Shown here: in pieces, positions 1 through 23,149 of the stretch | How positions within the stretch are numbered: position 1 is the stretch's first letter | Layout: every line of letters begins with the position of its first letter | DNA from: a virus | IMG/VR virus record: IMGVR_UViG_3300028177_000007 | Coordinates: 1 to 55,586 of that record | DNA: 55,586 bases | Reading direction: 5' to 3' (one strand) | The notes under the pieces: model-generated | Told to the model about the DNA's origin: nothing | Databases searched by the model: none | Seen by the model: the letters and a program-made list of their open reading frames with translations, nothing else | Position numbers and translations under genes: made by a program

Positions 1-3000
1 TTCGCTAGCTCCGTCTGTGCCCTTACCGCCACGACCCTTCATTCTGACATCTTTCAGAACCGACTTGTCGCCAAGTAGTGCTCTGGAGGCTTTGCCGAGA
101 CGTGCGATACCTTCGTCGCTTGTAACTAACTTGCCATCTGCGTCGAAATCGACTGCTTTCTTGATTTGTTTCTTTTCAGAAGCATTAATTGCACCTTGGA
201 TACCTTTACGACCCTTAACGACCCGCAACTTGCGTCGCAGTTGAGCGACACGGCGGGCAACTATTGATCTTTTATCCTCTTCACGACGGAAACCGGGAAG
301 AGAACTTCCCGCCCCTCCGCGTCGAGCTTTTCTAAGCGCACGACGATAGGCATTGTTCGGGTTTGGAGCCCAAATACGTTGTGCCATTGATCGGGAGAAC
401 TCTCCCGCACGGCGCCTAACGCCGGGCTCAACAGCATCAATAGCGGCTTGACGTTCCGTGAACGTGCTGCCGATAGTCGAATTGATGCGATTGCCTTTAC
501 TGAGACCCCAAGAAGCTTTACTTGTTTCTAGACGATCTTTATCAGCACCGTTTGCACGGTTGTAGATTCGGGCACGCTGTGTCGGCGTAAGATGCTCAAG
601 GAATCGGAAGGCGTCAGGGTCTTTGCCGTTGTTGCTTTGTTCGACCATGTTTCGGTAGATTCGAATTTCCCTTAACTGGTCCTTGAGCTGGTCGGCAGCC
701 TTGTCGGTCGCGTCGCCAGTCGCTTCGATTTGACTTTCTATCGCGGCTTCGATGGTGTCGATATCGGCGTCGGTGAAAATATAGTCCCTAAGTTTTTGGG
801 CAAGCTCGTCACCTTCATAGTCTTTTTCAAAGTCTGGTCTGATTGCTTGATCGAAATACTGTTTTACGATCCCTCCGAGGGGGTTGACGTGGAAGGTTGC
901 TTCCATTTCTTCTTCGGGGGTCATTTCTGAACGCTTTTTTTGTTTTGGCTTGCGAGGATCTATGCCGTTCATGTCATTCCATGCGAGTCCGTGCATTCGT
1001 CTACGCATTTCTGTGTCAATCGCCGTTCCGACATGCGCTCTTTCAGCATCGGTAAGGTTTTCCCAAATCTGACCATCAATGTCTGAGTGACGATCAAGTC
1101 CGGGTTCAGCTTGACCTCGGCGTCGTCTGCGACTTGACCGCATGCCCTGCAATTGAGAGGCACGATCTACTGAAGCGTCGCGCGCCCTAGAGCGCATTCC
1201 ACCCCTTGTAATTCGATCCCATTCACTACCAGCACCCGGTCGCGCTAACCGCCCCATGCTCGTACCCGTTTGGGCTTCGTGTTGGCGCCTTTCCGTAGCA
1301 CGCCTAGCCATTTCAGATCTTTGGCCGGGGTCTGTAATGTCAATCCAATTGCCACCCCGTTCAGGTTTGTCGTGAAGAGTTGGACGGAATTCATAGATTG
1401 AACCGTCTGGCTCTTCATGGGTTTCTCTGGCGGCTCGCCCGACTCGGGTCATTTCGTCGAACTCGCCTCGCATTCTGCGATTCTCTCGTTCTTGTCGAGT
1501 TTCGCCTGACCGGTCTGGAATCGTTCCTGCATATGGGCGACGCTGGGAGCGCATGCCGCCACGAGGGTTATCTCTTCGTATCGCTTCTCTTAAAGCTTCC
1601 TCACGGTTGTCATATTCTTCGGGAAGCCGCATGTTTCTGTTGCCCGTATCAATGACACGCCATTTGCCAGCTTCATCTCGTGTGATGTCATATCGCTCAG
1701 AACGCATGCCTCGTTGAGAGGGCATGCCGCCCGGGCTGCCCAGAATCTCGTCTGAGCGTTTCCATAGTGATTGCCGCTCACCGACATCAACTACATAGGA
1801 GTCAGTGCCTACGCCGCTCGCTCCGCCTTGCCCCAATCGGACGATAGTTCCCTCAGTGTCCTCGCCCCTGTGGCGAACGGTGACCTTGTCCCCGGGCTGT
1901 AGACGCTGAGAACGCATACCTTGTTCATCGCGATAGAAGCTGTCAGTAGTGCCTTCTCGGCGTCGCGGTACAGCAATATCAAGAAGTCGATCTAAATCAT
2001 CTTCACCAAAATATTCTCCATCATCCGTGATATCCCTTAGTGGGGTTTCCCAAATGTCATCATCTTCAGAGAATCCTGAAAGTGTGTTTCTGAGAGCTTC
2101 GGTTGCTTCGGGGAAATCTTCAATAACCTCTCCAACCGGAGTACTTAAAATCTCGTCTTGGGCACGGTTCTCTTCACGACGATTGCGCAATCTAAATTCG
2201 ACACCGTCCGCGTCATCGCGTGGGAAGCTACGAGGCTTGGTTCGGGTATGACGTTGGCCCGGAAGATTTGTGTTAACGCCCGGTATTGAGGGACGTTCCC
2301 ATACGGTGCCCTCCTGAACTATCCCATCATTATCTCCGTCCCAAGCGTTTGGATCAAACGGGTCTTTCATTGACCGTCCGATTTTGCGAATACCTCCGCG
2401 ACCCCTGCCTCCGCCGCCTCCCGGGGCGAGTCTGCGACCAAGACGGTTAGCTTTTGTACGGATAGATGACGAATGTTCTTTTGTTCCGAGATACCCCGGA
2501 TGTTCTTCTAGGTTTAAATGTTTCTCTAAAAGTACTGCTTTAGCTGCACGACGTGCATTCCCGGACCCCCGAGCAGTTTGAAATAATTCTTCGTTTAGGG
2601 CCTTCTGATCTGTTCCTTTTTCGGTGAAATTAAAACCTTTAGAATCGGCTCCGAAATGTCCTAAGCGTGCTTTGGCTAAAAGTGAAAGTCTTGCAGAATC
2701 GGCACGAAAAGCTGATCCCTTATAGTCTGCTCCAATAAAGAAATCTTTATCTGTCAGATTTGATAGCCCAGCATCTTTTACTTGCGGAATCTCTCCGGCA
2801 TATCTGTAGTTAACTGACTTGACATATACAAGCTGTGAGTGATCAGGAAAACGAACGGGCTTCCCTTCGGTTGCCTCATCAATCAAAGCTTGTGTTGTCG
2901 CTCTTACGGGCGCGAACGATCCAACGGAAATTCCCGGCTGAAGATCGTCATAAATGGATTTGGTTAAACCCTTGTTGTAACTTTCAGCCCACTTTTTACC

Positions 3001-3102
3001 GGCAGCATGGACACCATGACAGACAGTAAAATCATCATCTTTAACAATAATTGCAAAAAGTTTATCCGAACTAACGTCTTTGATAATAGCGAACTGTCTC
3101 AT
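1..3102 (-). CDS. Very large modular virion-associated protein, 3' end outside window (at least 1034 aa)
   Basis: The frame is open from the ATG at 3102 to the window edge, so the C-terminus is missing. The start overlaps the stop of the upstream gene (ATGA), implying translational coupling. The N-terminal 240 residues match no family I know. A Gly/Arg-rich linker follows, then a calcium-loop-like element (D-G-D-N-D-G-I-V-Q-E-G-T, residues 255-266), then an Arg/Glu-rich region with five G-M-R-S motifs at residues 395, 465, 516, 635 and 653. Residues 552-638 are one copy of a module found twice in the 2201-aa protein of the same arm. The rest is charged and probably partly helical, with an Arg/Lys-rich stretch near the window edge. 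No catalytic motif is visible. A structural or internal virion role is inferred only from the operon, which holds portal and prohead protease. Confidence 0.8.
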   Translation of the reverse strand, partial: MRQFAIIKDVSSDKLFAIIVKDDDFTVCHGVHAAGKKWAESYNKGLTKSIYDDLQPGISVGSFAPVRATTQALIDEATEGKPVRFPDHSQLVYVKSVNYRYAGEIPQVKDAGLSNLTDKDFFIGADYKGSAFRADSARLSLLAKARLGHFGADSKGFNFTEKGTDQKALNEELFQTARGSGNARRAAKAVLLEKHLNLEEHPGYLGTKEHSSSIRTKANRLGRRLAPGGGGGRGRGGIRKIGRSMKDPFDPNAWDGDNDGIVQEGTVWERPSIPGVNTNLPGQRHTRTKPRSFPRDDADGVEFRLRNRREENRAQDEILSTPVGEVIEDFPEATEALRNTLSGFSEDDDIWETPLRDITDDGEYFGEDDLDRLLDIAVPRRREGTTDSFYRDEQGMRSQRLQPGDKVTVRHRGEDTEGTIVRLGQGGASGVGTDSYVVDVGERQSLWKRSDEILGSPGGMPSQRGMRSERYDITRDEAGKWRVIDTGNRNMRLPEEYDNREEALREAIRRDNPRGGMRSQRRPYAGTIPDRSGETRQERENRRMRGEFDEMTRVGRAARETHEEPDGSIYEFRPTLHDKPERGGNWIDITDPGQRSEMARRATERRQHEAQTGTSMGRLARPGAGSEWDRITRGGMRSRARDASVDRASQLQGMRSSRRRRRGQAEPGLDRHSDIDGQIWENLTDAERAHVGTAIDTEMRRRMHGLAWNDMNGIDPRKPKQKKRSEMTPEEEMEATFHVNPLGGIVKQYFDQAIRPDFEKDYEGDELAQKLRDYIFTDADIDTIEAAIESQIEATGDATDKAADQLKDQLREIRIYRNMVEQSNNGKDPDAFRFLEHLTPTQRARIYNRANGADKDRLETSKASWGLSKGNRINSTIGSTFTERQAAIDAVEPGVRRRAGEFSRSMAQRIWAPNPNNAYRRALRKARRGGAGSSLPGFRREEDKRSIVARRVAQLRRKLRVVKGRKGIQGAINASEKKQIKKAVDFDADGKLVTSDEGIARLGKASRALLGDKSVLKDVRMKGRGGKGTDGASE
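1189..1449 (-). repeat. GMRS module, copy A
   Basis: 87 codons from T-R-V-G to G-M-R-S, in the truncated giant protein. Core features: E-T-H-E-E-P-D-G-S, E-F-R-P-T-L, G-R-L-A-R-P-G-A. Confidence 0.85.
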
Positions 3103-5039
3103 TGGGAACCGTCCAAGCGGGCGAGAATCGCGTTGTAGGCAGCAGCAAGTGTCTGGATACGAGCTTCAACAATTGTTTGAATAATATTTAGGTGAGTTTT
3201 TTCGGCTGCAGATAAAGCACCGTCGCGGTAAAGGCGATCCTTGTAATCAGTAAAATTGAATGTACGAGCTCTTTCAAGGAGGCGTTCTAGTTCGTTGCGA
3301 AATGCTTCCTGTTGGGCTTCTCGTAATTGTTGGTAATGCGAAGAATATATGCTTTCATTCGAAAGTGGTTTCATCGAAGAAATGCTTTCTTCGATTCTTT
3401 CTTGTATGCTGATGTCGTCCAAATCTTTGAGTGCAGACGGTATATGTGTCGGCACTGTTGCTTCGCCTAGTTTCCCTACGGCAGTGGGCGGTCTATCGTT
3501 GACTCCGAGAATTAAGTCAGATAAGAGCATGCGTACTGCGTCTTCTGGATCTACATCATCGAATGTCCGATCAGTATCCATAGATGGGGCAGCGAGAACG
3601 TAGCCACGCCGCTTGCCACCCTTCCCCGTAAACGCTGGGGGGAACGCTGCCAAACCTAGATGATTTTGGATTTCTGCTGCCGTAGCAACGTGTAAATGGT
3701 CGAAATCGGTTTTCGAAGACTGCATAAGGTAACGATTATCGCCGACTTCAAAGATGCCTCCGGGTCGTTTCGTACCCGCTTTTCGCATCGCAGCCTGCAA
3801 AATAGATGGATCAATTTCAGCAAGACTGCCCCCACCATTGATGTGGGTTACAGCGTCATCGACGTTACCAATTTTGTCGCCAACACCTTCGGGCACTTCA
3901 GCTTCAGGAACTTCAGCTTCCACTGTGGGTGTTTTGTCTGGCTTGGATTTGAGGGCATCCGCAACGGAACGAGCTGATCCTTTCCAGTCCTCCGTGTATG
4001 CGATACCTGTTCCCGTCTCCTCGTCGACAAATTTTAGTCTGGCCGCAGGATCTTTAGAATTGTCTTTCTTCATGGCGGCATTAACCGTGCGGCCCAGTTT
4101 TCTACGTTCACCGACAGTGAGCCCTCGAACCTTTTCAATAGAAAGAGAAGATCCGTCAGGAAGAACGTAAGAGATATTAGTAACTCCCGTATTGGACAGG
4201 AGACCCAACTCTTCGCCGCCCATTCCATCAACGGATGTGAGATTCATTAAGTAGGTGGCGCCTTCCATATCCCTGTTGTCTGGGATGGTTCTAAGGACGG
4301 CAGGACTGACGACCGGCTCCAACTGGAACCCATCTCGACGGACGAGCCGAGCCGTGTTTATGTCGGGCTTACCCATGGCTTCTATGATTTTTCCAGTAGC
4401 ACGAATGCGTTCTTGGCGGTCGTCGTTGCCGACGCGGGGAATATCTGGCCTACGGCTTTTTAGAACGTCTTGGCCTGAGCGTCCACGAATTACTTCACCT
4501 TCGGGTCCTGCGGGTGCACCAGCAGCGGCCCTACGAATGGCGGCAATGGTTGCACCGATAGCAGATGGGATATCGAAAAGTTGTTGTCCGCAAGTGGATA
4601 GTTGATTATCAGTAAACCGACCACCGTATTGGTAGCCCTCTGGGCATCGGTGTGCTCGTCCACGTTTGCGAATGCCTCGTCCACCTCCGGGGAGACCGGG
4701 AGTGATTGCCCGCCATCCGGCGGAACGTAAGGGACTTCGAACTCTGGAAATGTTTCCGGGTGTGATGATTGAACCCGCAGCCTGAGCTGCTTGTCCAAGA
4801 CGAGAACCTGATCCAACTAAGCCCGCTTTGGTAGTTACGCTGATGTCGTACTGGCGAGTATTCCCATTTCTATGAGATAAAGCTTTATATTCGCCAATAG
4901 TTTCGTCAGATGCGCGTGCATGTCGGATTAGACCCGAAGGAATGGTGTCGTCAAGCTTTCGTAAAATTGTTCGTTTGACCTGCACTTCTAAACCGTCGCA
5001 GCAGCCCAATTCCTTCGTGTAGGTGTAGGAAGTCGCCAT
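3099..5039 (-). CDS. Left-arm protein with Cys-pair motif and possible kinase-like fold
   Basis: About 646 aa. The ATG at 5039 lies just after the stop of the upstream gene. A GTG at 5051 would add four residues and is the alternative start. Around residue 130 a basic Gly/Arg linker leads into a short motif, C-P-E-G plus F-T-D plus a second Cys, that recurs in the 2201-aa protein. Further on there is an acidic, Pro-rich repeat (E-A-E-V-P) and a region whose order of motifs (N-R-Y-L-M, a Leu-rich helix, then L-L-S-D-L-I-L-G-V-N-D-R) is loosely like the catalytic loop of HipA-type kinases. The usual D-R-H-x-x-N is D-R-P-P here, so activity is doubtful. The C-terminal 120 residues look like a long helical bundle. 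Function unknown. Confidence 0.75.
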   Translation of the reverse strand: MATSYTYTKELGCCDGLEVQVKRTILRKLDDTIPSGLIRHARASDETIGEYKALSHRNGNTRQYDISVTTKAGLVGSGSRLGQAAQAAGSIITPGNISRVRSPLRSAGWRAITPGLPGGGRGIRKRGRAHRCPEGYQYGGRFTDNQLSTCGQQLFDIPSAIGATIAAIRRAAAGAPAGPEGEVIRGRSGQDVLKSRRPDIPRVGNDDRQERIRATGKIIEAMGKPDINTARLVRRDGFQLEPVVSPAVLRTIPDNRDMEGATYLMNLTSVDGMGGEELGLLSNTGVTNISYVLPDGSSLSIEKVRGLTVGERRKLGRTVNAAMKKDNSKDPAARLKFVDEETGTGIAYTEDWKGSARSVADALKSKPDKTPTVEAEVPEAEVPEGVGDKIGNVDDAVTHINGGGSLAEIDPSILQAAMRKAGTKRPGGIFEVGDNRYLMQSSKTDFDHLHVATAAEIQNHLGLAAFPPAFTGKGGKRRGYVLAAPSMDTDRTFDDVDPEDAVRMLLSDLILGVNDRPPTAVGKLGEATVPTHIPSALKDLDDISIQERIEESISSMKPLSNESIYSSHYQQLREAQQEAFRNELERLLERARTFNFTDYKDRLYRDGALSAAEKTHLNIIQTIVEARIQTLAAAYNAILARLDGSQ

Positions 5040-5041
5040 AT

Positions 5042-5686
5042 TTATTCGCACCCACAGTCCTTAGCTTCGCTGAAATCTGTAACCCATTCGTCGCCGTCGT
5101 CGCCTTCTCCGACTAATTCCCAATTGTTGTGATCTCGGAGGTAGGACGTGAAGTCCTTTTCCATCACAACGAAATCAGCTAAAACGGTTGAAGCATGCTT
5201 GAGGTCACTTGTAGTTACTACAGGATTATACCCTATAGTCGTATAAGAGCTCTTAGACTCTAAGAAGTCTCCGAAAAATACGTCTTCCTGATCCCAAGCC
5301 TCATCGAAACCTTTTTTACGTTTCTTGAAGCGCTTGCGTATTCGCTTGCTCCATTCGGCATCAGTCCATCCCAGCTTCCGAAGTTTTCCTTTACAATTCT
5401 TCATGCCCGGATGATGACACCCTTCGTTGGGCCATTTACCGGTGGTTTCGTGATGGAGCCACGCGCAAATTCTTTCCAGTGGGTATAACTCAGGGTGATT
5501 TTTAAGAATGACACGACAGCGTGTAAACCCGCCGGGCTTTTTCATGATTGGGCGCCAATATCTAAGCAATCTCTCCAGATTGCCTCGTCTCGGTCCACGT
5601 CCACGGGTAATCGATGTCAATCTCTCTTGAGGGAGATCGAGTAGAACGTCCTGTGGCCCTTTGATGTCGTAACTGTCAGTTGTCAT
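5042..5686 (-). CDS. Basic protein with Cys/His cluster
   Basis: 214 aa. Start ATG at 5686 with AGGTGA six bases upstream. Residues 30-100 are Arg/Trp-rich and contain C-A-W-L-H-H followed by G-C-H-H-P-G-M-K-N-C, a plausible zinc or structural metal site. A Lys/Arg run follows (R-K-R-F-K-K-R-K-K). The C-terminal quarter is acidic and ends in Cys-Gly-Cys-Glu. The overall pattern resembles small basic proteins that sit among capsid genes of actinobacterial phages, but I cannot name a family. It lies in the same tightly packed operon as the giant proteins. Confidence 0.7.
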   Translation of the reverse strand: MTTDSYDIKGPQDVLLDLPQERLTSITRGRGPRRGNLERLLRYWRPIMKKPGGFTRCRVILKNHPELYPLERICAWLHHETTGKWPNEGCHHPGMKNCKGKLRKLGWTDAEWSKRIRKRFKKRKKGFDEAWDQEDVFFGDFLESKSSYTTIGYNPVVTTSDLKHASTVLADFVVMEKDFTSYLRDHNNWELVGEGDDGDEWVTDFSEAKDCGCE

Positions 5687-5712
5687 GTGTAGTCACCTAT
5701 AATAGTTTACGT

Positions 5713-6132
5713 TCAATTCAGTCCGGGATCTGCGAAGTTTGCAGGATTCAATGATGAAGTGATTCTTCCTCTATGCGTATGCCAAGGAGGAAATAAGAAA
5801 CTTCCAACATCGACAACCTGCTCTAGCTGCTCATCTCTTTCATCTCTTGTCCGTTGTTTGCTGCGCTCGTAACGTTCAATGCGTTCTTCAATAGAGTTTC
5901 GACGGTTATCAATATGTGGATCAGACCCATCTTCTAATTGACGAAGAATCCCAACCAGTTCGTCACGACTATGACTCATCCCATTCCACTGGTTTGGTTT
6001 ATAACCGAGCGCTCGTTCTAACAAGCTTTGCCAATCCTGAATTGAAGGTTTTTCCAATTCTCCCCGCTCGGCATTTTTTGTGAAAAATTCAGCAGGTGGA
6101 ATTTTGTCAGAGAATTTGAGCCATTTAGACAT
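5713..6132 (-). CDS. Small charged hypothetical protein
   Basis: 139 aa. The ATG at 6132 is preceded by a good GGGAGG at suitable distance, and its start overlaps the last 8 bases of the 1107-aa gene. The middle (about residues 75-110) is rich in Glu, Arg and Asp and is predicted helical. The ends are not charged in the same way. No motif or family is recognisable. Conservation of its coupling to the flanking genes suggests a role in the same structure. Confidence 0.7.
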   Translation of the reverse strand: MSKWLKFSDKIPPAEFFTKNAERGELEKPSIQDWQSLLERALGYKPNQWNGMSHSRDELVGILRQLEDGSDPHIDNRRNSIEERIERYERSKQRTRDERDEQLEQVVDVGSFLFPPWHTHRGRITSSLNPANFADPGLN

Positions 6133-9100
6133 ATGTAGTTCCTCCCGATCGTATTTTTGGCGTTCCCTTAGGGGAAAGCCATTTAAATAAGCGGGTTAAT
6201 GCATTCACTTCCGCAGGAGTAAGTTCTCGACGGCCATTCGGACCCCAAATTGGGAAATCCATTCCCGTAGTCATCAGAGTCATAAACTCTGCTACCAGTT
6301 CGTGGCGCCCTCCTCCTGTTAGCTCGTTGAGAAGGGCATGTGATGTATGTGCACCCGCGTAACTGCCATAAACCCTATACCCAAGATTATCTGATAAATT
6401 CCTCAGCAGGTCGATGTCTGTATCATTTAAGCCATCCCAGAAGCTGCCATCTTGAATAAGGGTTCCGACTAAGGAAGAAATAATTCCTTCGAGTGCTCCA
6501 CCCTCTTCAAAGAGGCGATGGTCTCCCATGACATCTATGCCACGTTGCCCCCTAGGGTCACCGAAACTCTGGGTTTGATTGATTCGACTTCTATCAATGA
6601 ACTTGTGGTCATAGACGAGAGAAGCAAGTAGTTGGTCAACTAATTTTTGTCTTAGTTCGACTCTCTGTTCAGGGCTTTTACTTGAAACGAATTCAGTAAC
6701 CGGTAGTCCTGTTGAACTAACTTCGCTTTTCGACTCTTTGATTTTATTAAATCTTACTTTAAGAAGCTTGGCCAAATAGTTTTGACTCCTTTTTACTTCT
6801 TCATCATTCAATCGCTTTCTTTCAGCACGTCTTTCTAGGTCTGTAGGGTTGAATGGATCTTTGAAAGCAGTTTGTACATTGGTGACAGGACGTGGGGCAA
6901 CCGGAATGGAAGATTTTTCATCAGCCAAAATACGATTAACTACTGCATGAGCATCGAGTAACGGTGCAACATCTTCTGGCGACACTCGTGCCGACTCGCG
7001 TATAACGCTTGCGTTGTCGTCCGTGGCGCGAAACTTGAACCCGGGTATTCCGCTTTCCCTAAGTACCGTAGGTGCGGGTAAAACTCCTTGGTCGAGTAGC
7101 TCGATACCGTTGTCACGTTTATACCAGCCACCCTGAGCCAACACGTTATCCGGTACGGCGTCTAACGGTCCTATGTCATTGTCGTCGTCGAGTATAAATA
7201 GTGCTTTGTCATCAACCCTGATCCAGTTCTCTCCAGTAGCAGTTCCGTCTCTTGGCTTGTAGCTGAGATATTTACCCTTTCGATGATCTGTCAATGTGGT
7301 GACACCATGGGCAGCGGATTCGCTGGAAAGCAATTGGTATTTTCCGAAATAGAAGCTGGGAGACATCCCGTACAAAACATGTGCAAGAGTTAATTCTTCA
7401 CCCGGGGAGATGGTTAGGTCAACGTCTAGCCAAATAAGGGCAGCCTCACCTGCTAATGCGTTGAAATACTGGGCGAGTCCGGGAGTGGCTGTGTATGCGT
7501 TGCCGTCACCATCCATGATGGGTTGTCCCATCCATTCAATAAGCCGCTGAGCCCTATTGGAACCCGTCTTTTCCATAATGTCGAGATAACGCATCCATTG
7601 CCCGACCCCCATAGTGTCAGGGTCGACACTTAGAACACCTCGGATATCGCCGTGGTTTGATAAATCTGCAGCAGCTCTATCCACGGCGAGAATCACCCTT
7701 GGGCCATATGCTCCATGGGCCAAGGCATAACCACCAGTGCTGGTTTTATCTATATGTTCGCTATCCAGATCTAGCGCGGTTTTGTCAGCGATGGGGTTTT
7801 TTGCTATACGATCTTTTATTCGTTCATATGCTCGTTTTAATGCGTTTTCTTCACCACCTGAATCTTTGTCTGCAAATGATTTAATATTTGCAGTATGACT
7901 TCCATGTCCAGAGAATTCATGTGTTGCAATCGTGGCTCCAAATATTGCTTTACCTTGTTTGATAACTGCTGCCTGTTCACCTTCGGGCACATCGTCAAGG
8001 TGAGCTGCTAGGGCAATCAGAGCAGTAGTGGCGGTGTTGTGACCCCATTTTGAACTCTCTTCAGCATCTAAGCCGAGCTCAAAGTCAAGTAGTTGCGGAT
8101 GATCTTTTTCTTTGCGTAAGCCGATAGTGATTCTTGGTTTTGTGTGACGAGATGGCGTTGTATCAATTTCGAACATTTCGTCAAGGCGTTCTGAGAACCG
8201 TTTGTTTCGTTCTTCCCGTGTACCCGTGGTAGCTCTCAATAGTTGTAGAGCTATTTTGTTGACCTTCCACTTCTTTCCTTGCTTGCTGGACGCTTGACCC
8301 GCAATAGCAGGCGGTCCTTGAATGACTGGATTGCCGGGGGTTCGATTGTCCTCATGTGCAATTTCCAAGGTGTGGTTTTGAAGATCAGGGTTATCTCTTA
8401 AATTCCTCATTACAGTTAATGCCGTATATTTTTCATACAGAGAAAACTCTTCGTCGCCTTGCCGATCGGGGGTGATCAAGTCGAAATAGCTGCCCCCCGG
8501 ATTGTCATATTTACGCCCTATTGGGTCACCATTCTGATTGTAACGAATTGTCATTCTTTGATTGAGGCCGGGTCCGAATCCGCTGTGAAGTTGAGCTGCA
8601 ATTTCTCGAAAATCGTCAGTGGTTCGTATGGGACGCCCGTCAAGAAAGGCTTCACTCAATTCATTTTCTAAATCGATCCAACTTTGCAAGAGCTCTTCAG
8701 GGTCGTTGCCTGTGAGGTGGGCAGACAAGGCTGCTTCTGTTTTCTTCCAGCTGTAATAACGATTCTTGGCTACATAGAGGTCTTGTGGTGAAGCGTCAAA
8801 CAAGGTTGTGGGATTTGGCGGCTCATCTTTCATGAACCGTTTCCGTGGTAGTTGGTTTGTTGACCTAAGACCATCCGGAGTTAGATTCGTTCGTACTGAC
8901 GGCGTAGCAGCTCTAGCCCACTGGGTACCTTCCTGAATAAAGCCATCCAAATCACCGTCATGAGCATTTCTGTCAAACCGAATTCCTCTACGGAAACCTC
9001 TGACGGCTCCCGTAGCTGCACGACCAGCCATCCTGCCGACACTTCTCGCAAAAGCTTTTTCGTTGAGCCCTGCGGATATCAGCGATCGATATTCGATAGC

Positions 9101-9448
9101 TCGGTTGGCCTTCTCTTCCATTTGTCGGACACGACTAGGCCCGTCGTCTGTTTTAAACTTGCTAATCACATTTACGCCAACCAATAAATCAGCCGGTTCG
9201 GCAACTCGGTCAATAAAGACGTGTTCCCAGCGAGGTTTTAGACTTCCCTTGTTGCCGGTCCAAAGAAATTTATGAAAATCTGAATCCATAAGACGCTGTA
9301 TGCGCGGTTTTTTAGAGACGTATGCAAAAAAGTTGACGAATGTTGGAGGAGAATCGGGTTTGACCACTACACCGGTAGAGTCGTTATCTGATTCCAATAG
9401 ATAATAAATTCGACTATCGCCCGTATTGGCAACGTGTATAGCTTTCAT
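6125..9448 (-). CDS. Large modular protein with calcium-loop-like element and HExxGH-like site
   Basis: 1107 aa. Its ATG at 9448 overlaps the stop of the 2201-aa gene (TGATG). After an N-terminal domain of about 130 residues of unknown type comes an Arg/Gly-rich stretch, then D-G-D-L-D-G-F-I-Q-E-G-T (residues 164-175) and one G-L-R-S (193). Near residue 510 there is T-H-E-F-S-G-H-G-S-H, and near the C-terminus R-H-E-L-V-A-E-F. These recall zinc metallopeptidase ligands, but the spacing H-E-x-x-G-H is not the canonical HExxH, so I treat enzymatic activity as possible only. The same operon encodes a clearer HExxH protein directly upstream. Likely a virion or head-assembly protein by context. 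Confidence 0.8.
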   Translation of the reverse strand: MKAIHVANTGDSRIYYLLESDNDSTGVVVKPDSPPTFVNFFAYVSKKPRIQRLMDSDFHKFLWTGNKGSLKPRWEHVFIDRVAEPADLLVGVNVISKFKTDDGPSRVRQMEEKANRAIEYRSLISAGLNEKAFARSVGRMAGRAATGAVRGFRRGIRFDRNAHDGDLDGFIQEGTQWARAATPSVRTNLTPDGLRSTNQLPRKRFMKDEPPNPTTLFDASPQDLYVAKNRYYSWKKTEAALSAHLTGNDPEELLQSWIDLENELSEAFLDGRPIRTTDDFREIAAQLHSGFGPGLNQRMTIRYNQNGDPIGRKYDNPGGSYFDLITPDRQGDEEFSLYEKYTALTVMRNLRDNPDLQNHTLEIAHEDNRTPGNPVIQGPPAIAGQASSKQGKKWKVNKIALQLLRATTGTREERNKRFSERLDEMFEIDTTPSRHTKPRITIGLRKEKDHPQLLDFELGLDAEESSKWGHNTATTALIALAAHLDDVPEGEQAAVIKQGKAIFGATIATHEFSGHGSHTANIKSFADKDSGGEENALKRAYERIKDRIAKNPIADKTALDLDSEHIDKTSTGGYALAHGAYGPRVILAVDRAAADLSNHGDIRGVLSVDPDTMGVGQWMRYLDIMEKTGSNRAQRLIEWMGQPIMDGDGNAYTATPGLAQYFNALAGEAALIWLDVDLTISPGEELTLAHVLYGMSPSFYFGKYQLLSSESAAHGVTTLTDHRKGKYLSYKPRDGTATGENWIRVDDKALFILDDDNDIGPLDAVPDNVLAQGGWYKRDNGIELLDQGVLPAPTVLRESGIPGFKFRATDDNASVIRESARVSPEDVAPLLDAHAVVNRILADEKSSIPVAPRPVTNVQTAFKDPFNPTDLERRAERKRLNDEEVKRSQNYLAKLLKVRFNKIKESKSEVSSTGLPVTEFVSSKSPEQRVELRQKLVDQLLASLVYDHKFIDRSRINQTQSFGDPRGQRGIDVMGDHRLFEEGGALEGIISSLVGTLIQDGSFWDGLNDTDIDLLRNLSDNLGYRVYGSYAGAHTSHALLNELTGGGRHELVAEFMTLMTTGMDFPIWGPNGRRELTPAEVNALTRLFKWLSPKGTPKIRSGGTTYV

Positions 9449-16053: not shown

Positions 16054-16077
16054 TCGGACCCACCTTTCGGGGAGCCC

Positions 16078-17895
16078 CTAAATGGGACCGTTGTTATTGG
16101 TTTCCTCCGCGAGTAATTCAAATTCGATCAGAGAAGCCATGAATTCTGCATCATCTGCACTCAGGATCGCTTTTTCGTCACTACCAGCAACCCAGTTGGT
16201 CGGAATAAGTTCTTCCAGACCAAGATCTTTAGCTCGCTTCATAATGTGAGCTTTTGTTGCTGGTTTGTTACTTGCCCGACCATAAGCCTGAACCGCATTA
16301 CGGAGATCTTCTTCCGACACAATCGGATATGAACCATCCTTCATGGCGTGACCCTGATCGGCCAAATCGTCGCGCTCATCGTCTGAGAACGCACGCTTAA
16401 GGGCGATTTCAGCAGCTTCGGCCTCGATGGCCTCTGCCTCGTCCGGCTCGTATGTGTCATAACCCAAAACTTCACCGTCAAGAGCAACGAACACATCATG
16501 TGACTTGCCATCTACGCCATTAATTTCTATCGCGTAGCAGTCGAAAGATTCGAATACATCCGGCTCTACGGCGTTGACTACACCTTCGATTGTCTTAACC
16601 GCGATTTCGGCAGCCTCGCTGAAGTCAACAAGGTCAACTGTTTCGAAAGCATCTTTTTGTTCAAAGACAGAATCGTCGAGGCGGCTAAAGCCGAGAACCT
16701 CTCCAGACTTAGCTTCAACGAATACTTCGATAACCTTTTTGCCGTCAACATCAAGATCGCAGATAAAGAGATCTGCGCGATCTGAATAAACAGAATCAAT
16801 TACCGTTGCGTACTCTGCGCCCTTGAATTGGACTTCAAGAGCTTGTTCAACTTCGAGCAAGCTGGGCATGCCCTTTTCAGAGACGCAGCCGCCCGGGCAG
16901 TCGTCGCAAACAGAGGCGTTGCCGGGGTAGACCTTTCGGTCGAGGGCACACAAATATGCACCGACAGATTTCTTAGCTGAGGACTCTTCGTATTCTTCAT
17001 CTTCTTCCTCCTCCTCTTCCTCAGCAAGAGCTGGGGCTGGGGGAACTTCTTCCTCTTCGGCAGCGGGAGCCGGAGGGGCTTCCTCTACGGGAGCGGCTGG
17101 AGCAGCGGCGGCAGGATCGGCAGCAGGAGCAGCAGGAGGAGGAGCAGCAGCAGCAGGAGCCTCTTCCTCTTCGGCATCCTCTTCCTCTTCTTCCTCATCG
17201 TCGACGTTTAGGCGGCTTTCGCGCATCATAACGCCAGCTTTTTCGTCCTTTTCTTCCTCTAGGCCGACCCAACCGTCATCTTCAGTTTTTTCTACGATCG
17301 GCTCGTCTTCAGAAATTGGTTCGTTATCAACCTTTTCATCGATTGACTCATCTTCGGTCTTTTCTTCTACATCATCTTCAGATTTAGCCTCTGTAGCTTC
17401 GTGCTCGTCGTGATCCGGGTCGTCATCGTCATCCTCTAATTGGGTATCAGAGTTATCGCGAGTGTCTTTTTCAATACGACGCTTTTCGGCTTCAACCTCG
17501 GAGACCTCGTCCATGACGCTGGCTTTTTCTTCAAGTGCCTTGATCAGCACTGCGTCCTCGTCGTCCAGAGTTTCATCATTAACGATGGCTTGTTCCATTG
17601 GACTCTCTTTCAGTTCGACCGCTGATGCGCCACACTTACCGCACATCTTACTACCTGCAGTATACTCGCAATCAGTAGTACTGTAGCCCTTAGAACATGT
17701 AAGCGCTGTACCATCGGTGTTCAGCTTGACTACGTTTTCTTCTTCCAGACCCATTTGTTGAGGCTCCTTGTACTGCATGGCTCTGGACAGACACCCCTTA
17801 GGGTTGATGCAGCCGACACATGGCTTTGCGACCTTTTCGCCGCTCAACATGCATTGGTACTTCGATTGTTTGCCTCGGAGACCGCTATTAGACAT
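16078..17895 (-). CDS. Cys-rich, acidic protein with PepSY-like region
   Basis: 605 aa. Start ATG at 17895 with a GAGG/AGGA leader. The N-terminus has a cluster C-x2-C-x5-C (C-V-G-C-I-N-P-K-G-C), then C-G-K-C. A related cluster (C-D-D-C-P-G-G-C) recurs near residue 335. Between them lies a very acidic low-complexity region of Asp/Glu with Ala/Pro runs (about residues 110-320). Next come two PepSY-like beta segments (around 355-510), including E-V-L-G-F and E-V-L-G-Y. The C-terminus contains A-T-K-A-H-I-M-K-R-A-K-D-L-G-L, a short helical element often fused to phage capsid or protease genes. It could be a scaffold-like or capsid-associated protein. Function unproven. Confidence 0.75.
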   Translation of the reverse strand: MSNSGLRGKQSKYQCMLSGEKVAKPCVGCINPKGCLSRAMQYKEPQQMGLEEENVVKLNTDGTALTCSKGYSTTDCEYTAGSKMCGKCGASAVELKESPMEQAIVNDETLDDEDAVLIKALEEKASVMDEVSEVEAEKRRIEKDTRDNSDTQLEDDDDDPDHDEHEATEAKSEDDVEEKTEDESIDEKVDNEPISEDEPIVEKTEDDGWVGLEEEKDEKAGVMMRESRLNVDDEEEEEEDAEEEEAPAAAAPPPAAPAADPAAAAPAAPVEEAPPAPAAEEEEVPPAPALAEEEEEEEDEEYEESSAKKSVGAYLCALDRKVYPGNASVCDDCPGGCVSEKGMPSLLEVEQALEVQFKGAEYATVIDSVYSDRADLFICDLDVDGKKVIEVFVEAKSGEVLGFSRLDDSVFEQKDAFETVDLVDFSEAAEIAVKTIEGVVNAVEPDVFESFDCYAIEINGVDGKSHDVFVALDGEVLGYDTYEPDEAEAIEAEAAEIALKRAFSDDERDDLADQGHAMKDGSYPIVSEEDLRNAVQAYGRASNKPATKAHIMKRAKDLGLEELIPTNWVAGSDEKAILSADDAEFMASLIEFELLAEETNNNGPI

Positions 17896-17939
17896 TGTAT
17901 CCTACCTCTTGCGTCTTATTAGTATTAGTAGACATCATC

Positions 17940-20900
17940 TTATAAATCCGTATTTGGGATGTCGACTGTACGACCTGCTTCGTTCGTGGCTTTCCGTGTT
18001 CTGCTTTGAATTGCTTCTGTTTCTTTCAATATGAAAGTCGAAATAGCTGCAGAAGAAAGCTTTTCAATCAATTCCGCAAACATCTCTGTTCGAGACCCCT
18101 TTTCCGCAGTTTGACGATCCAAAACATGCATTAAAGCATCGAGCATCTCGTCAATCTCTGTCTGTGTGACAGTCAACGAACCAGCGTTAGTGCGCTTGTC
18201 GCCGGTTTTACCCGATTCTTGACGAGCCAATGTTCGTTTCAAGGTTCGGAGGGCATCAGCTGTTTGCTGATCTTTGTCTCGTGAAGCCATATCGATTTCT
18301 TTTTGAAGAGAATCTTCGATTTTTTTAAACCATGTGGCTTCGCCCGTAATCTGAGCACGACCTTCGCGCTCTGATCGCATGCCTCGGTTGCCCGTACTGG
18401 TTTCATTATTTTGGTTGAGGTTGAGTCTGCGTGATGGAGCTGAATACTGTGGTCGAGGATTGCCTCTACTGGGTTTAGCTCCAAGCTCTCGCAATTGGCG
18501 TTCCAGACGATCCATTTCTTCTTTGTCACCAGTTGCTCGCGCGTTACTCCAAAGGTTGCGAAGATCTCCGATCTTTTCTTCTCTGGATGTATGAGCTTGC
18601 GAACGCAAACCTTGTCGTCGTCTGGCATCTACATACTCTCGCGTTGATGTACCCGACAGCTTGCTGCTGTTTTGTCGAATGGATCGTAAACCGCTTGGAG
18701 AAAATAGTTCGAGGTTGTTGAGTTCCATAATGTCTAGGTCGTCGCTACCCCCACCCAGAGTTCGAATTTGAGGGGTGTCTCCTTCGGAAATAAATCGATC
18801 ACCCTCATAGTCGGAAAGAAGATCTTCAATATGACTCTTACGACTTAGCGCGGCAGCACGCAATTCGCCTTCAACCGGCGACAGTTCGCCAGACTCTCTG
18901 CTGAGATAACTCTCGAACAATCCATCAAGAGCACGCAATTGGGAATGGGTCAAATCATCCGACCCTGAAACTATGTCTAAAGCTTCAGACCAAATGTCTG
19001 CGTGTTCACTTCGAACTACATCCCCACTGTTGGTCGCTCTACTGTCAGCATTAGCAAACGATGACTCTAAGTTATTAAGAACTTTTTTACGTTCTGTTTT
19101 AGCTGTTTGTGCCGTTGTTCGTTGGGGCTCTCTATCTTCGGTTTCACGCTTGCGAACACTAGCTGGGAGTATGACTCCGCCTCTTCGAGCGCGTCGCTCC
19201 GCTATCGTTTCAAAGCGACCCTCTGAACGGTCTCTGCGAAGCTCTCTTTTTTCTATAATCTTGTCTAATTCATTGTAGATACGGTCATAGTCAATTTGCC
19301 TCATCCCGCTCTTACTTGGAGTCATTTCCGCACTGAGGAGAGCGAACTTATCTTCAGTACTCAAATCGTCCCAATCGTCGGGCTTAACTTCTTCAAACTT
19401 CTTACCTTTAAAGCGTTCTTGTGAATCTTCCATTACATGCCCCATGGGGCGACCGCGAGTCTCTGGTTTAGCTTCGTCGGCAGTTGCCCTTTGTGGGATT
19501 TTCTGCTCCGACCTCAAGCCACGACGCGCAGGGTCGAGACTGGTGCCAGTGGTTGCTTCATCCCATCGGGACAAAAGATCATTCGACTGTCGCCGCTCCG
19601 CCGCTTGACCTGCCTCGCGACGAGCTTCGGAACGTCGTGCGATTCTCTCAACTCGACGTTGTCCTAGACGACTAAGCGCAGCATCATCCATTGCGTTCCA
19701 GCGGTCGATATCCGCCCGATCCTCTGGCCTCACATCTCTGATATCAGGAATGATGTCCTCGCCGGTAGGTTCGTCAAATAGGGCGTCGGTATCCCCCGGG
19801 AAAGCTCGAAGTGACTGAGATCCACTGCGAGATTGTCTTCTCGTGCGGCCACCTCTACTCATATTGGGTCCACCCATGTCGGCCCTACGGGCACCCCTTA
19901 ACGTTTCGACAACCGGCTCACCAGCGAGTTGGGGCAGATCTACTCGCGAACGCCCCTGTTTGGTGGCGTGTGTGTATTGGCCTTCCATGATTGCCCACCG
20001 TCGGGGTGAAGCAGAGCCGTGTTCTTTTAAGTCTGCGAACATCAAATAGTCGCGACCGGGCAAATAAAGACCCCGACGTTCACCCTCTGGAGCACCTATA
20101 GCTTCCATCATTTTTGCCTGATTGGCTGGAGTTATGTCAGGATGAGCACCATTGTTGATTCTCTTATTCCCGAATCCTCTGTATTTATTGTCTGGCAGGT
20201 CGAGTTGCGACGACCTAAATTTTTGGGTTGGTGAAAGTGCAGCGAATTCGAGTATGTCGCGACCTGTTTTGGGATGCATTCGACTTTGGGTAGGCGGCGA
20301 AACTTTCTCCCACGCATGGGTGAAGTCGTGATATTGCCCTCTAGGGATTTTTACTACCCCATCTTTGTTGGCAGCAAGTTTCTGATCATATTTTGCTAAA
20401 ACACCATTTACTTTGCTGTCTTTGCTTTTGCCAATCAGTGCTTTTATATGGGAACGAAGTGAATCGATCTCATCTGGCGTTAGCTCAAGTTCAACACCCT
20501 TAGATTCGACGGGCAAACGAACAAAACTTTTACGTCCACCTTCCCAACTATGAATTGCCGCAGAAATCAAATGCTTTCTTCGTTCTGAATCCAACTGCAT
20601 GAAACGTTGTTTCATCTCAGCATATTCAGCGTCGAATCGTCCCACCTCGTCCATCTGGGCCTCTAGAACATCTAGTTTTTTATCCAGATCTTCAATTCGG
20701 TCTTTACGTTCCTTAACCGACATATTTCTAATAGCTTGTGATGGAAGCTGCGCCTTCAGTGCGTCCCATTCAATATTTTCTGTTCGGGTACCGGGTCCTC
20801 GCGGATTTACTGCGGCTGGACCTGCTCCAGTGCGTGCAGTAGCTCCTCGGCCCCCGCGTATCGGCGTTCCCTCTCTCGGCCCGGTAGGTTTGCGAGTACC

Positions 20901-23075
20901 ATATTTATAAGTGTTGGATCGCACACTGCCCGCTCGTTCATCTTCAGCAATCTGGCTAAATACTTCGTTCGTATATTCTTCATGTGAGGGCAGGCCCAAC
21001 ATTTCGTTGAGGTCATCACTTCTTGCGTACTTCAACGTGGAGTCGTCGCCGGGCACATAGCCCTCTGGCTCATCAGCCCCACCGTGATACATGGGTATTT
21101 GTCGAGAACGGTCTTTGAGCATCTCTTGCACATTCTCTGATGCATCTAACGTCTCGCCCACCTTTTTGAGCTCTTCGTTTCCATACCGATGCAAAGGCTC
21201 TCCGGGACCAGTTGGTCCTTCCGAATCAGCGTATTTCTCTTTTCTAAACCACTCCGTTCTTCGCCCGAGGCCAAAACCGTCAAATGGAACCCAATTGCCG
21301 TGGCTACCACCTTCACCCGATTCGAGAGCGTCGGCATCTCGAAGAACGTCACCTGTACCGGAACGCATATAGAACGGCTGGGTAGTTCCGTCAGCTAATT
21401 CGACAAGAAGTATCGGGCGTTTGTTTAGTTCAGTATCAGTGTGCATCAAGAGGGTTTCACTGATCTGAAAATCTCCCTCTCTGAGCGTCGGCGTGAGGCG
21501 ATGGTCCCTAGTCTCTGAGCGCATGCCAGCGGCACGCTCCACCCTGCGATTCTGGACAGTTCGTTTACCCGGACGAGTTCGATTCGGATTACGACGAGGC
21601 TTCCGTGCCTCTCTGACGTGGGCACTGTCATCTGGGTAATCAGGGGGTTTGATTCTGGTTTTTGGTTCGCCGGGCCAGTTTGTGTTGATACCGGGAATAG
21701 ATGGACGCTGGAAAGGCGTACCTTCTTGAACTATTCCGTCGCCATCACCATCCCAAGCTTTTGGGTCGAACGCTGCGGTGAGGGCTCTCCCAGCCCTACG
21801 GCCTTTTCCCAAGCCACCACCTCGCCCCAGTCTTCCACCTAGGGCCTTCACAGCCGTATCTGCTGCGTCCTCAAATCCGGACGGATAATCACTACACAAC
21901 AGCCCATCGACACTAGGGGTCACTGTGACTCTGTAATAATCGAAAATTGGTTGAAGCATGTCTTTGAACTCAAACATGTTGTCCAATGTGCAGGAAATAA
22001 GATAATCAGATTTAGCTTCTTCTGTTGTTTCTTTTCCCTGAATTGGGCTGACATGATGATTCGGCTTATGGCTCATTGGGCCGATGGGCGGCATGTTCGG
22101 TTGAACCGGGGAATAAACCGTTTGTGGTTTAACTCGTGCTGGTTTGCCAAACATGTATCTGCCGTCGCTGGCCTTGTGGTATCCCATTCGATACATGCGG
22201 TTAGTCCCATCCACCATCTTGCGGAGGAACACCACCATGTTCTCGGTGGCCTCAACGATCTTGATCGGTACCTTTGTTCGTGAGTGAATTTCTTGAGCCA
22301 GTTCCATGCGAGCTTCCATGTCAATGGGACCAGCCTCACCACGAGACCAAATGTCTCTATCGGCGTGGTGGGAATCGCTATCTGGTTTCTTAGGCATTGG
22401 AATAACGATCATTTGCATGGGAACTCGTCCCATCATCTGACCCTTTTCGAAAATGAAAGCTTCCTCTTCTTCTGCCTGAATATCTGGTTCTGAAGCAATG
22501 TGGTTCTTTGTCCCACATTCACAACCACCAATTCCACAGGCACCGTATTCTCCGTCCTTGACAGAAATCGTGCCTGTCAGTTGGTTGGCACCATGCAGCA
22601 CAGGGCTTACTTCATAAAGTTCAACCTCTTTGAGCAAGTTGGCCTGCTTGACCGGATCGAAAGTGGCTTGAAGGGTCTTATAGCCGATTGACCATTCCTG
22701 TTCTTCTCCGAAGAAGGCGACGTTAGCGAATGCCTCTCGCCCTTTTTCTGCACCCAGATTGAACTGGACTTTTGCAAACAAACCGCCGATTCCAGCACTC
22801 TTCATTTTTTCTGGAAGTCGTGGGTCCGAGTTAGCGACTTCGTAGATCTCTAAAACTTTTCCAATGGGGTCGTTCCAGCTATGTCCCCAAACCACTCTGG
22901 GCTTTCTTCTTTTTAGGCTCTCATTGAAGGCGCCGGGAAGAACGATGTCGCCAACACTGTCTTTGTTGCCTATGCCAGAAACAAAACATTCGACAATCCC
23001 TTGGGCATTGTCAACACTGATCTGAGCGCCGTTTCGGGCTTTAAATTGAATGTCATCAAGCAGTTCGTTTGGCAT
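17940..23075 (-). CDS. HK97-type prohead protease fused to a 1500-residue modular tail
   Basis: 1711 aa from the ATG at 23075, chosen because GGAGG lies 7 bases upstream; an upstream in-frame start at 23138 lacks such a site. The first 190 residues are a prohead serine protease: V-L-P-G-A-F-N, then W-G-H-S-W (His65), then E-W-S-I-G-Y (Ser129), then E-V-S-P-V-L. Such enzymes cleave scaffold and capsid delta domains inside the prohead. Family members are usually about 200-250 aa. Here the chain continues with a calcium-loop-like element (residues 442-453) and G-M-R-S or G-L-R-S motifs at 517, 1186, 1462, 1489 and 1565, plus a G-M-R-Q at 1257, all in charged, Arg/Glu-rich sequence. I infer that the tail is released or packaged during maturation. 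Confidence 0.9.
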   Translation of the reverse strand: MPNELLDDIQFKARNGAQISVDNAQGIVECFVSGIGNKDSVGDIVLPGAFNESLKRRKPRVVWGHSWNDPIGKVLEIYEVANSDPRLPEKMKSAGIGGLFAKVQFNLGAEKGREAFANVAFFGEEQEWSIGYKTLQATFDPVKQANLLKEVELYEVSPVLHGANQLTGTISVKDGEYGACGIGGCECGTKNHIASEPDIQAEEEEAFIFEKGQMMGRVPMQMIVIPMPKKPDSDSHHADRDIWSRGEAGPIDMEARMELAQEIHSRTKVPIKIVEATENMVVFLRKMVDGTNRMYRMGYHKASDGRYMFGKPARVKPQTVYSPVQPNMPPIGPMSHKPNHHVSPIQGKETTEEAKSDYLISCTLDNMFEFKDMLQPIFDYYRVTVTPSVDGLLCSDYPSGFEDAADTAVKALGGRLGRGGGLGKGRRAGRALTAAFDPKAWDGDGDGIVQEGTPFQRPSIPGINTNWPGEPKTRIKPPDYPDDSAHVREARKPRRNPNRTRPGKRTVQNRRVERAAGMRSETRDHRLTPTLREGDFQISETLLMHTDTELNKRPILLVELADGTTQPFYMRSGTGDVLRDADALESGEGGSHGNWVPFDGFGLGRRTEWFRKEKYADSEGPTGPGEPLHRYGNEELKKVGETLDASENVQEMLKDRSRQIPMYHGGADEPEGYVPGDDSTLKYARSDDLNEMLGLPSHEEYTNEVFSQIAEDERAGSVRSNTYKYGTRKPTGPREGTPIRGGRGATARTGAGPAAVNPRGPGTRTENIEWDALKAQLPSQAIRNMSVKERKDRIEDLDKKLDVLEAQMDEVGRFDAEYAEMKQRFMQLDSERRKHLISAAIHSWEGGRKSFVRLPVESKGVELELTPDEIDSLRSHIKALIGKSKDSKVNGVLAKYDQKLAANKDGVVKIPRGQYHDFTHAWEKVSPPTQSRMHPKTGRDILEFAALSPTQKFRSSQLDLPDNKYRGFGNKRINNGAHPDITPANQAKMMEAIGAPEGERRGLYLPGRDYLMFADLKEHGSASPRRWAIMEGQYTHATKQGRSRVDLPQLAGEPVVETLRGARRADMGGPNMSRGGRTRRQSRSGSQSLRAFPGDTDALFDEPTGEDIIPDIRDVRPEDRADIDRWNAMDDAALSRLGQRRVERIARRSEARREAGQAAERRQSNDLLSRWDEATTGTSLDPARRGLRSEQKIPQRATADEAKPETRGRPMGHVMEDSQERFKGKKFEEVKPDDWDDLSTEDKFALLSAEMTPSKSGMRQIDYDRIYNELDKIIEKRELRRDRSEGRFETIAERRARRGGVILPASVRKRETEDREPQRTTAQTAKTERKKVLNNLESSFANADSRATNSGDVVRSEHADIWSEALDIVSGSDDLTHSQLRALDGLFESYLSRESGELSPVEGELRAAALSRKSHIEDLLSDYEGDRFISEGDTPQIRTLGGGSDDLDIMELNNLELFSPSGLRSIRQNSSKLSGTSTREYVDARRRQGLRSQAHTSREEKIGDLRNLWSNARATGDKEEMDRLERQLRELGAKPSRGNPRPQYSAPSRRLNLNQNNETSTGNRGMRSEREGRAQITGEATWFKKIEDSLQKEIDMASRDKDQQTADALRTLKRTLARQESGKTGDKRTNAGSLTVTQTEIDEMLDALMHVLDRQTAEKGSRTEMFAELIEKLSSAAISTFILKETEAIQSRTRKATNEAGRTVDIPNTDL

Positions 23076-23149
23076 ATTGAAACCTCCGTCAATACATAAT
23101 AAGCGACAGAAAGCTTCTACCGTGTAAGTAACAAGCATAAGAACTGCAG

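Follow-up and report, generated by a model that had tools for sequence, protein, structure and literature searches.

Retroviruses join the protease and the polyprotein of Gag-Pro-Pol by a -1 frameshift and cut the product at multiple junctions in the particle, and the cargo-loading peptides of encapsulins are short, few and terminal tags for a shell of the HK97 fold. Head proteases with recurrent cleavage motifs are also reported for phages T4 (gp21) and phiKZ. Here we describe a tetrapeptide, G-[M/L]-R-S in its initial form and G-[M/L/F]-[R/A/S]-S once relatives are considered, which recurs at or near the module junctions of giant proteins encoded in a head-gene block. The block lies in a 55,586-nucleotide stretch of tailed-phage DNA (IMG/VR record IMGVR_UViG_3300028177_000007, positions 1 to 55,586; hereafter "the window"), and one of the motif carriers begins with an S78 prohead protease.

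Polyvalent proteins are the nearest phage counterpart; they combine many domains, their genes are often found near late head genes, and the passages of Iyer et al. 2017 that treat them propose that they are split by zincin domains (PMC5512222). The carriers share this build, and several domains per polypeptide are seen in the related loci, such as S78 with UvrD in L074, ArdcN with MPTase-PolyVal in the second protein of L069 and S78 with helix-turn-helix-type matches in L106. L069 carries zincin and ArdC domains (PF18818, PF08401), which the Pfam scan did not report in the five window proteins. Unlike polyvalent proteins, for which the same passages describe no such motif (PMC5512222), the chains reported here have a sharp, lineage-specific tetrapeptide at or near the junctions and a prohead protease in one chain. 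In phage SPN3US, gp245 cleaves internal head proteins at a short motif present in several copies in some propeptides, according to the cited account (PMC10052503). The likeness lies in an encoded head protease and a short motif recurrent in candidate head proteins. In contrast to SPN3US gp245, T4 gp21 and phiKZ, the protease belongs to Pfam S78, the motif stands between modules and not only in N-terminal propeptides, and its spelling varies by lineage; moreover, cleavage by gp245 was shown, whereas the present system is known from sequences alone. Phage P1 offers another parallel, its large anti-defence proteins DarA and DarB being built into the head (PMC12810830, PMC9024508) and DarA losing its N-terminus to the head protease while staying within the capsid (PMC12810830), but these accounts place protease and cargo in separate genes and mention neither a module chain nor a repeated motif at junctions.

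As in Gag-Pro-Pol, some relatives join the protease and a downstream polyprotein by an apparent -1 frameshift, and cutting at multiple junctions is the parallel we propose; protease and virus are nevertheless unrelated, and the fusion in the window is in frame. The motif resembles encapsulin tags in being short, in lying in flexible segments and in belonging to proteins probably destined for an HK97-fold shell, but it is internal and repeated (median spacing 163 aa; only 3 open reading frames (ORFs) have a motif within 40 aa of the ORF end). A preliminary description of this DNA knew of no phage system of this kind. This stands for the exact combination, as nothing was recognised as such in a literature search of open-licence papers, but not for its elements, since polyvalent proteins and the motif-cutting head protease of SPN3US were already known. 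Two frameshift papers concern, in the parts relevant here, tail genes and not a protease-cargo fusion. What appears to be new is thus the association of junction tags of lineage-specific spelling with a protease-cargo fusion, on known polyvalent and head-protease themes.

The motif and its carriers in the window

The head-gene block forms the left arm of the window, on the minus strand, and is encoded between the genes for the portal and the major capsid protein (MCP). The 16 G-[M/L]-R-S sites and the single G-M-R-Q variant listed in the preliminary description were all found at the places given; its residue numbers hold as well, those of the protease protein being counted from the Met at residue 21 (1711 aa, against 1732 aa in the longest reading used below, so that 517 becomes 538). 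Its prohead protease, placed as the first domain of one carrier, was recognised as Pfam S78. The carriers and their sites are as follows.

17940..23138, minus strand: module chain with an in-frame N-terminal S78 prohead protease (P0005; PF04586), five motifs (538, 1207, 1483, 1510, 1586)
22569..23006, minus strand: S78 protease domain, residues 45-190 (PF04586, E 5.8e-11; phrog_80, E 2.1e-26)
21675..21776, minus strand: DxDxDG...QEGT...RPxIPG element of the protease protein (shared-element comparison; limits approximate)
21516..21527, minus strand: GMRS, residue 538, protease protein
19509..19520, minus strand: GLRS, residue 1207, protease protein
18681..18692, minus strand: GLRS, residue 1483, protease protein
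18600..18611, minus strand: GLRS, residue 1510, protease protein
18372..18383, minus strand: GMRS, residue 1586, protease protein, upstream of the EATWFKK anchor used in the ortholog comparison
9448..16053, minus strand: 2201-aa module protein (P0004), five motifs (892, 992, 1524, 1622, 1709)
13369..13380, minus strand: GMRS, residue 892, 2201-aa protein
13069..13080, minus strand: GMRS, residue 992, 2201-aa protein
11473..11484, minus strand: GMRS, residue 1524, 2201-aa protein
11179..11190, minus strand: GMRS, residue 1622, 2201-aa protein
10918..10929, minus strand: GMRS, residue 1709, 2201-aa protein
13084..13371, minus strand: "ETHEEPDGS" module copy 1, 2201-aa protein, a GMRS on either side (limits approximate)
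11194..11475, minus strand: "ETHEEPDGS" module copy 2, 2201-aa protein, a GMRS on either side (limits approximate)
6125..9448, minus strand: 1107-aa protein (P0003), single GLRS directly after its DxDxDG element
8861..8872, minus strand: GLRS, residue 193, 1107-aa protein, missing from the homologous protein of G002
8882..8983, minus strand: DxDxDG element, 1107-aa protein (limits approximate)
1..3102, minus strand: module protein cut by the window edge (P0001, 1034 of 1300 aa), five motifs; gene complete in G001
1909..1920, minus strand: GMRS, residue 395, edge-cut protein
1699..1710, minus strand: GMRS, residue 465, edge-cut protein
1546..1557, minus strand: GMRS, residue 516, edge-cut protein
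1189..1200, minus strand: GMRS, residue 635, edge-cut protein
1135..1146, minus strand: GMRS, residue 653, edge-cut protein
1207..1485, minus strand: "ETHEEPDGS" module copy 3, edge-cut protein (limits approximate)
2263..2364, minus strand: DxDxDG element, edge-cut protein (limits approximate)

GMRS, with 12 copies, is the commonest tetrapeptide among the five left-arm proteins counted, and the 16 G[ML]RS sites compare with a mean of 0.36 and a maximum of 4 in 2,000 shuffles made inside 50-residue windows. G001, a near-identical 91-kb virus contig, holds 18 such sites and G002, a 114-kb relative, 23; in both, G[ML]RS was found in none of the selected ORFs of at least 80 aa outside the portal-MCP block. 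The short motif therefore recurs in candidate head proteins and is absent from others, with the exception of one G[ML]RS in the presumed terminase of L008 and L009. G001 also completes the block past the window edge with the 1300-aa protein, a 913-aa protein and then the MCP, and the 913-aa protein is a fifth motif carrier, with a zeta-toxin-type kinase domain, two G[ML]RS, one GVRS and one GIRS. In the Pfam scan of the five window proteins S78 was the only domain named, and a zincin was recognised in none of the five. Zincin-like HExxH signatures can be seen by eye in the 1107-aa protein (HEFSGHGSH; 6125-9448) and the 2201-aa protein (HELAHVKQ; 9448-16053).

The order of the block is portal, protease fusion, acidic 605-aa protein, 2201-aa protein, 1107-aa protein, the 139-, 214- and 650-aa proteins and finally the edge-cut protein, and several of its members lack the motif:

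23174..25174, minus strand: portal protein, 666 aa, first gene of the block (PF04860, E 2.7e-47; phrog_2662, E 4e-63)
16078..17895, minus strand: acidic 605-aa protein without motif; its sole PHROG match is weak (E 0.0043)
5713..6132, minus strand: 139-aa protein without motif
5042..5686, minus strand: 214-aa protein without motif
3099..5051, minus strand: 650-aa protein without motif

The opposite strand encodes the terminase and the tail sheath, and the tail sheath gene is preceded by a 120-aa ORF (35586-35948, plus strand; phrog_7924) that has a DxDxDG...QDGT end like that of the giant head proteins.

Spelling of the motif in relatives

Relatives were collected from viral contigs with two queries, the protease domain and the DxDxDG...QEGT...RPxIPG element that four G001 proteins share; two of the scans yielded, respectively, the best 80 out of 276 relatives and the best 80 out of 546. 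The protease domain was recognised in 133 loci, forming 49 clusters at 95% identity, and motif statistics were drawn from 55 ORFs of at least 800 aa (97,169 aa) in the cluster representatives. In many loci, a presumed terminase ORF of roughly 440 aa contains one G[MLIVF]RS; since such ORFs confound the counts, later counts were confined to ORFs of at least 600 or at least 800 aa. The search among related phages suggested in the preliminary description bore it out and widened the pattern to G-[MLF]-[RAS]-S, with 231 sites against 16.8 in shuffles. G at the first position and S at the fourth each account for these 231 sites against 16.8 expected, S and A in place of G being about 2.5-fold enriched. 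The second position is M in 94, L in 102 and F in 35 sites, with I and V at chance. At the third, R occurs 117, S 64 and A 50 times where shuffles give about 5 apiece; E and P are enriched about twofold, and the other residues stay near chance. In L147, a protein of 3,508 residues carries 22 copies of G[MLVIF]RS.

The spelling follows the lineage, as GMRS, GLRS, GLSSG, GLAS, GMAS, GFAS, GFSS or GMSS. Sameness of spelling within a genome was 0.458, compared with 0.143 under permutation (maximum of 5,000 permutations 0.191), in the 29 clusters having at least 3 sites (250 sites). An orthologous site near the C-terminus, located by an EATxFK anchor in 12 clusters (L171 was not testable), agrees with the rest of its own genome at the third residue in 9 of the 11 testable clusters (476 of 20,000 permutations as high) and at the hydrophobic residue in 10 of the 11 (13 of 20,000). 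Mapped on a protease-domain tree, class R requires 8 changes, class S 4 and class A 4, of which starred branches force at least 3, 3 and 2, respectively. With the labels "mixed" and "none" included, 18 changes are needed against 25.6 in shuffled labels; the spelling classes are therefore clustered on the tree, yet repeatedly changed. L043, with 9 GMAS and 3 GMRS, looks as if it were in transition from one spelling to another. A spelling that is lineage-specific, mostly uniform and often changed jointly at orthologous sites suggests that the motif is read by a phage protein that co-evolves with it, for which the fused capsid protease is a candidate.

Searches in named phages gave no match for P0004 and P0001 (P0003 was not searched), for residues 518-3484 of L147 or for residues 461-2509 of the L069 protein. 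P0005 and the L106 chain matched named phages at the protease end only, among the matches listed (40 of 99 and 10 of 233, respectively). In 12 proteins of Gordonia phages DalanDe, GMA6 and Hanem and Brevibacterium phage Cantare, no G[MLF][RAS]S array was found, only one site in Cantare gp11, and a search with a 35-residue consensus returned no match. L179, a 7.1-kb contig from an Acidimicrobiia genome assembly, carries 8 GMRS and one GFAS in two ORFs; it may hint at an Acidimicrobiia host or be a stray phage contig.

The fused protease and the module junctions

The S78 domain of the window stands in frame at the head of a 1,732-residue chain. H66 and S130 are invariant in all 26 rows of the S78 alignment (the window and 25 relatives) and are probably the catalytic residues. 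In a structure model of P0005 residues 21-540, the S78 region has a predicted local distance difference test score (pLDDT) of about 65-85 and the remainder is low (predicted template modelling score 0.34); a fold search with this model gave 592 matches with E up to 10 and none with E up to 0.001, so that no relative could be named. Two small domains follow S78 in the P0005 model (17940-23138), at residues ~270-338 and 376-438, with pLDDT of about 90.

A different arrangement is found in 12 loci of 6 of the 49 clusters (L120-L123, L127, L155, L157, L159, L163, L170, L175 and L178), where the protease ORF, 462-586 aa long, stops at an A7/A8 run or soon beyond it and a giant ORF continues in the -1 frame. 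The first residues of this giant ORF resemble, by eye, the in-frame sequence that follows the L147 protease. GGTGGTTCAAAAAAATA is common to 9 of the 12 loci, and GGTGGTTCAAAAAAA is kept in four loci with an in-frame fusion. A hairpin is found 7 bases after the run in six aligned loci, none of its 13 pairs being changed on both sides, and RNA-structure z-scores were between -0.5 and -4.0 in 11 loci relative to single-base shuffles. The A7/A8 overlap is an apparent site of programmed -1 frameshifting, by slippage of the ribosome or of RNA polymerase, and we infer that this would join the prohead protease to its cargo. In L126, a single in-frame stop parts the protease ORF (ending at 5033) from the module ORF (starting at 5037), which may reflect readthrough, a real break or a sequencing error.

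The motifs avoid recognised domains: in 11 proteins, 1 of 108 lies inside a Pfam match with E of at most 1e-3, where 5.6 would be expected without S78 and 9.8 with it; the one exception falls in a weak MerR match of L043. Modules bordered by sites include a UvrD helicase, ArdC, NUDIX, KTSC and a zeta-toxin-type kinase; the UvrD helicase is flanked by two GLSS and the NUDIX domain by two STRS, an LSSG begins 7 residues ahead of ArdC, and the KTSC and zeta-toxin domains start 23 and 20 residues past a GMRS. Adjacent motifs are spaced with quartiles of 76-290 aa around the median given above (192 pairs). Modules shared by different proteins often end a few residues from a motif. Copies 1 and 2 of the ETHEEPDGS module, present three times in the window, match the copy of the edge-cut protein at 66% over 101 aa and 51% over 160 aa, and a stretch of the 913-aa protein that includes the DxDxDG element has a counterpart in the L011 protease protein (55% over 168 aa). 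Within one protein of another relative (L069:8321-15850), about 130 residues (RRELGKPFSS...) form a module that is doubled, each copy lying between LSSG motifs. The preliminary description had placed the motifs in charged linkers, and at 216 sites in relatives the flanks are indeed more basic (19% vs 14%) and less hydrophobic (18% vs 26%) than random positions of the same proteins. A model of P0001 residues 300-760 was of low confidence (mean pLDDT 44.7, 4 sequences), with the stretch of residues 465-516 at about 80.

At 35 sites the residues are held although the third codon positions vary almost freely (0.03-0.19 bits), which argues for selection on the peptide. The Ser codon of the motif is TCN in 33 of these 35 sites, against a background of 63% in the same proteins, so that many copies look related by descent. 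Two other roles were considered. Internal translation starts, suggested by a second codon that is ATG in 27 of 35 sites and otherwise mostly NTG, were set aside since other lineages have Phe at this position (GFAS, GFSS, GFRS); a present function as a DNA recognition site or recombination box is disfavoured by the free third codon positions and by the rarity of the core elsewhere, as 1 of 13 matches to GGNATGCGNTC in G001 and 1 of 19 in G002 fall outside the motif genes.

Processing, docking and other explanations

The explanation we favour, to which we give an even chance, is that G-[M/L/F]-[R/A/S]-S serves as a proteolytic processing site in the flexible linkers of head-packaged modular polyproteins and is cut by the S78 prohead protease. 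The head location, the avoidance of domains, the seemingly co-evolving reader and the protease joined to the chain all point to cutting by a prohead protease during head maturation. We infer that these phages would build modular polyproteins into their heads, where the cis-joined S78 protease, having probably helped to bring its own chain into the procapsid, would cut that chain and, in trans, the chains of neighbouring genes; the freed small proteins would leave it together with the DNA and take effect early in the next infected cell. The bond cut would most likely be that between [R/A/S] and the invariant Ser. The mature form of HK97 gp5 is reported to start at Ser104, and herpesvirus assemblin is said to cleave between Ala and Ser. 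Cleavage ahead of Ser would also fit the P1 capsid protein, the mature form of which starts with Ser in the cited account (PMC9024508). A broader scheme, which we put forward tentatively and hold to be somewhat less probable than even, is a retrovirus-like one operating in a large group of uncultivated tailed phages: the prohead protease would be translated, in frame or through -1 frameshifting, as the first part of a cargo polyprotein of up to ~3,500 residues and would cut in cis and in trans at a tetrapeptide respelled genome-wide several times as the taste of the protease changed, and the standardised junctions would turn modules into exchangeable injected units.

Several observations weigh against the favoured explanation. 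The HK97-like MCP, presumably a substrate of the same protease, lacks the motif near its scaffold-domain border, and by eye this border does not change in step with the motif of the lineage (22 hits, giving 19 distinct rows plus that of the window, one of them cut short); the equivalent of the HK97 border in the window MCP is V-Y-S at about residues 148-150, by alignment estimate only. No column of the S78 alignment was significantly associated with the motif class (22 rows; best mutual information 0.69, permutation 95% point 0.75), an association that left out the 20 of 49 clusters with no assignable class. Several of these unclassed clusters have a protease ORF alone before a motif-free protein, and a further 4 clusters are mixed in spelling. 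STRS in one clade and LRSSG in one cluster fall outside the general pattern, the anchored orthologous site is itself GMRA in L011 and L042, where it was accepted, and it is discordant with its genome in L090 and L139 at the third residue and in L139 at the hydrophobic residue. Within-genome sameness may come partly from module duplication rather than from a reader. As to position, a motif of L043 (residue 1476) lies within a weak MerR match below the Pfam cut-off, 3 ORFs have a motif 11-22 residues before their end (possibly a truncation at the contig edge) and, among 192 neighbouring pairs, 5 lie at most 12 residues apart; cutting at such ORF-end and near-tandem sites would free almost nothing.

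Some of these points would suit a docking tag better, that is, a repeated short linear motif that binds the MCP, portal or scaffold and holds cargo on the inner face of the procapsid in the manner of encapsulin cargo-loading peptides, its spelling following the binding pocket. The preliminary description had offered cleavage and docking side by side, and both fit a peptide read by a partner, for which the co-evolving reader and the junction position speak; the protease joined in cis, in frame or by the apparent -1 frameshift, favours cleavage, while the motif-free MCP and the lack of an S78 residue that tracks the spelling tell the other way. Docking would account for carriers encoded between portal and MCP in two long relatives, for many copies per protein (22 in L147), for basic flanks poor in hydrophobic residues and for the copies near ORF ends or nearly in tandem, and a cargo tag has a precedent in the capsid-targeting signal described within the first 30 residues of P1 DarB (PMC9024508). 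Yet docking alone does not explain the protease fusion or the -1 arrangement, and several proteins of the same block have no motif. Cargo tags are, moreover, said to be few and terminal, but here copies occur all along the proteins and rarely inside recognised domains. We consider docking unlikely on balance, though the likeliest of the alternatives.

Cutting by a protease other than S78, either the polyvalent zincin (MPTase) domains of the cargo or a host protease, would also suit the motif-free MCP and the absence of measurable co-variation in S78. An MPTase-PolyVal domain (E 2e-37) is present in a motif-bearing protein of L069, HExxH signatures were noted by eye in P0003, P0004 and L171, and MPTases are the processing enzymes proposed for polyvalent proteins in the passages of Iyer et al. 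cited above (PMC5512222). Nevertheless, Pfam recognised no zincin in the five window proteins scanned and it is S78 that is joined to the module chains, in frame or via the -1 frame, which makes another protease an improbable cutter. Least probable of all, and in our opinion very doubtful, is that the motif marks DNA seams left by module exchange or duplication, with no role in the protein. Modules that recur from protein to protein with motifs at or close to their borders, and TCN serine codons that suggest common descent, are what such scars would leave, but selection on the peptide, the scarcity of GGNATGCGNTC outside motif genes and the respelling of orthologous sites, often in step, speak against them.

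Should the motif prove to be a docking tag instead, it would offer a common code, placed at junctions, by which cargo is loaded into HK97-type capsids. If, as we favour, it is cut by the prohead protease, it would predict from sequence alone the mature units among thousands of residues of uncharacterised head cargo, and it would be a pointer to new anti-defence or takeover proteins. The repeated genome-wide respelling would then be a natural record of protease-substrate co-evolution, and the apparent -1 frameshift between protease and cargo would bring a retrovirus-style tactic to tailed phages.

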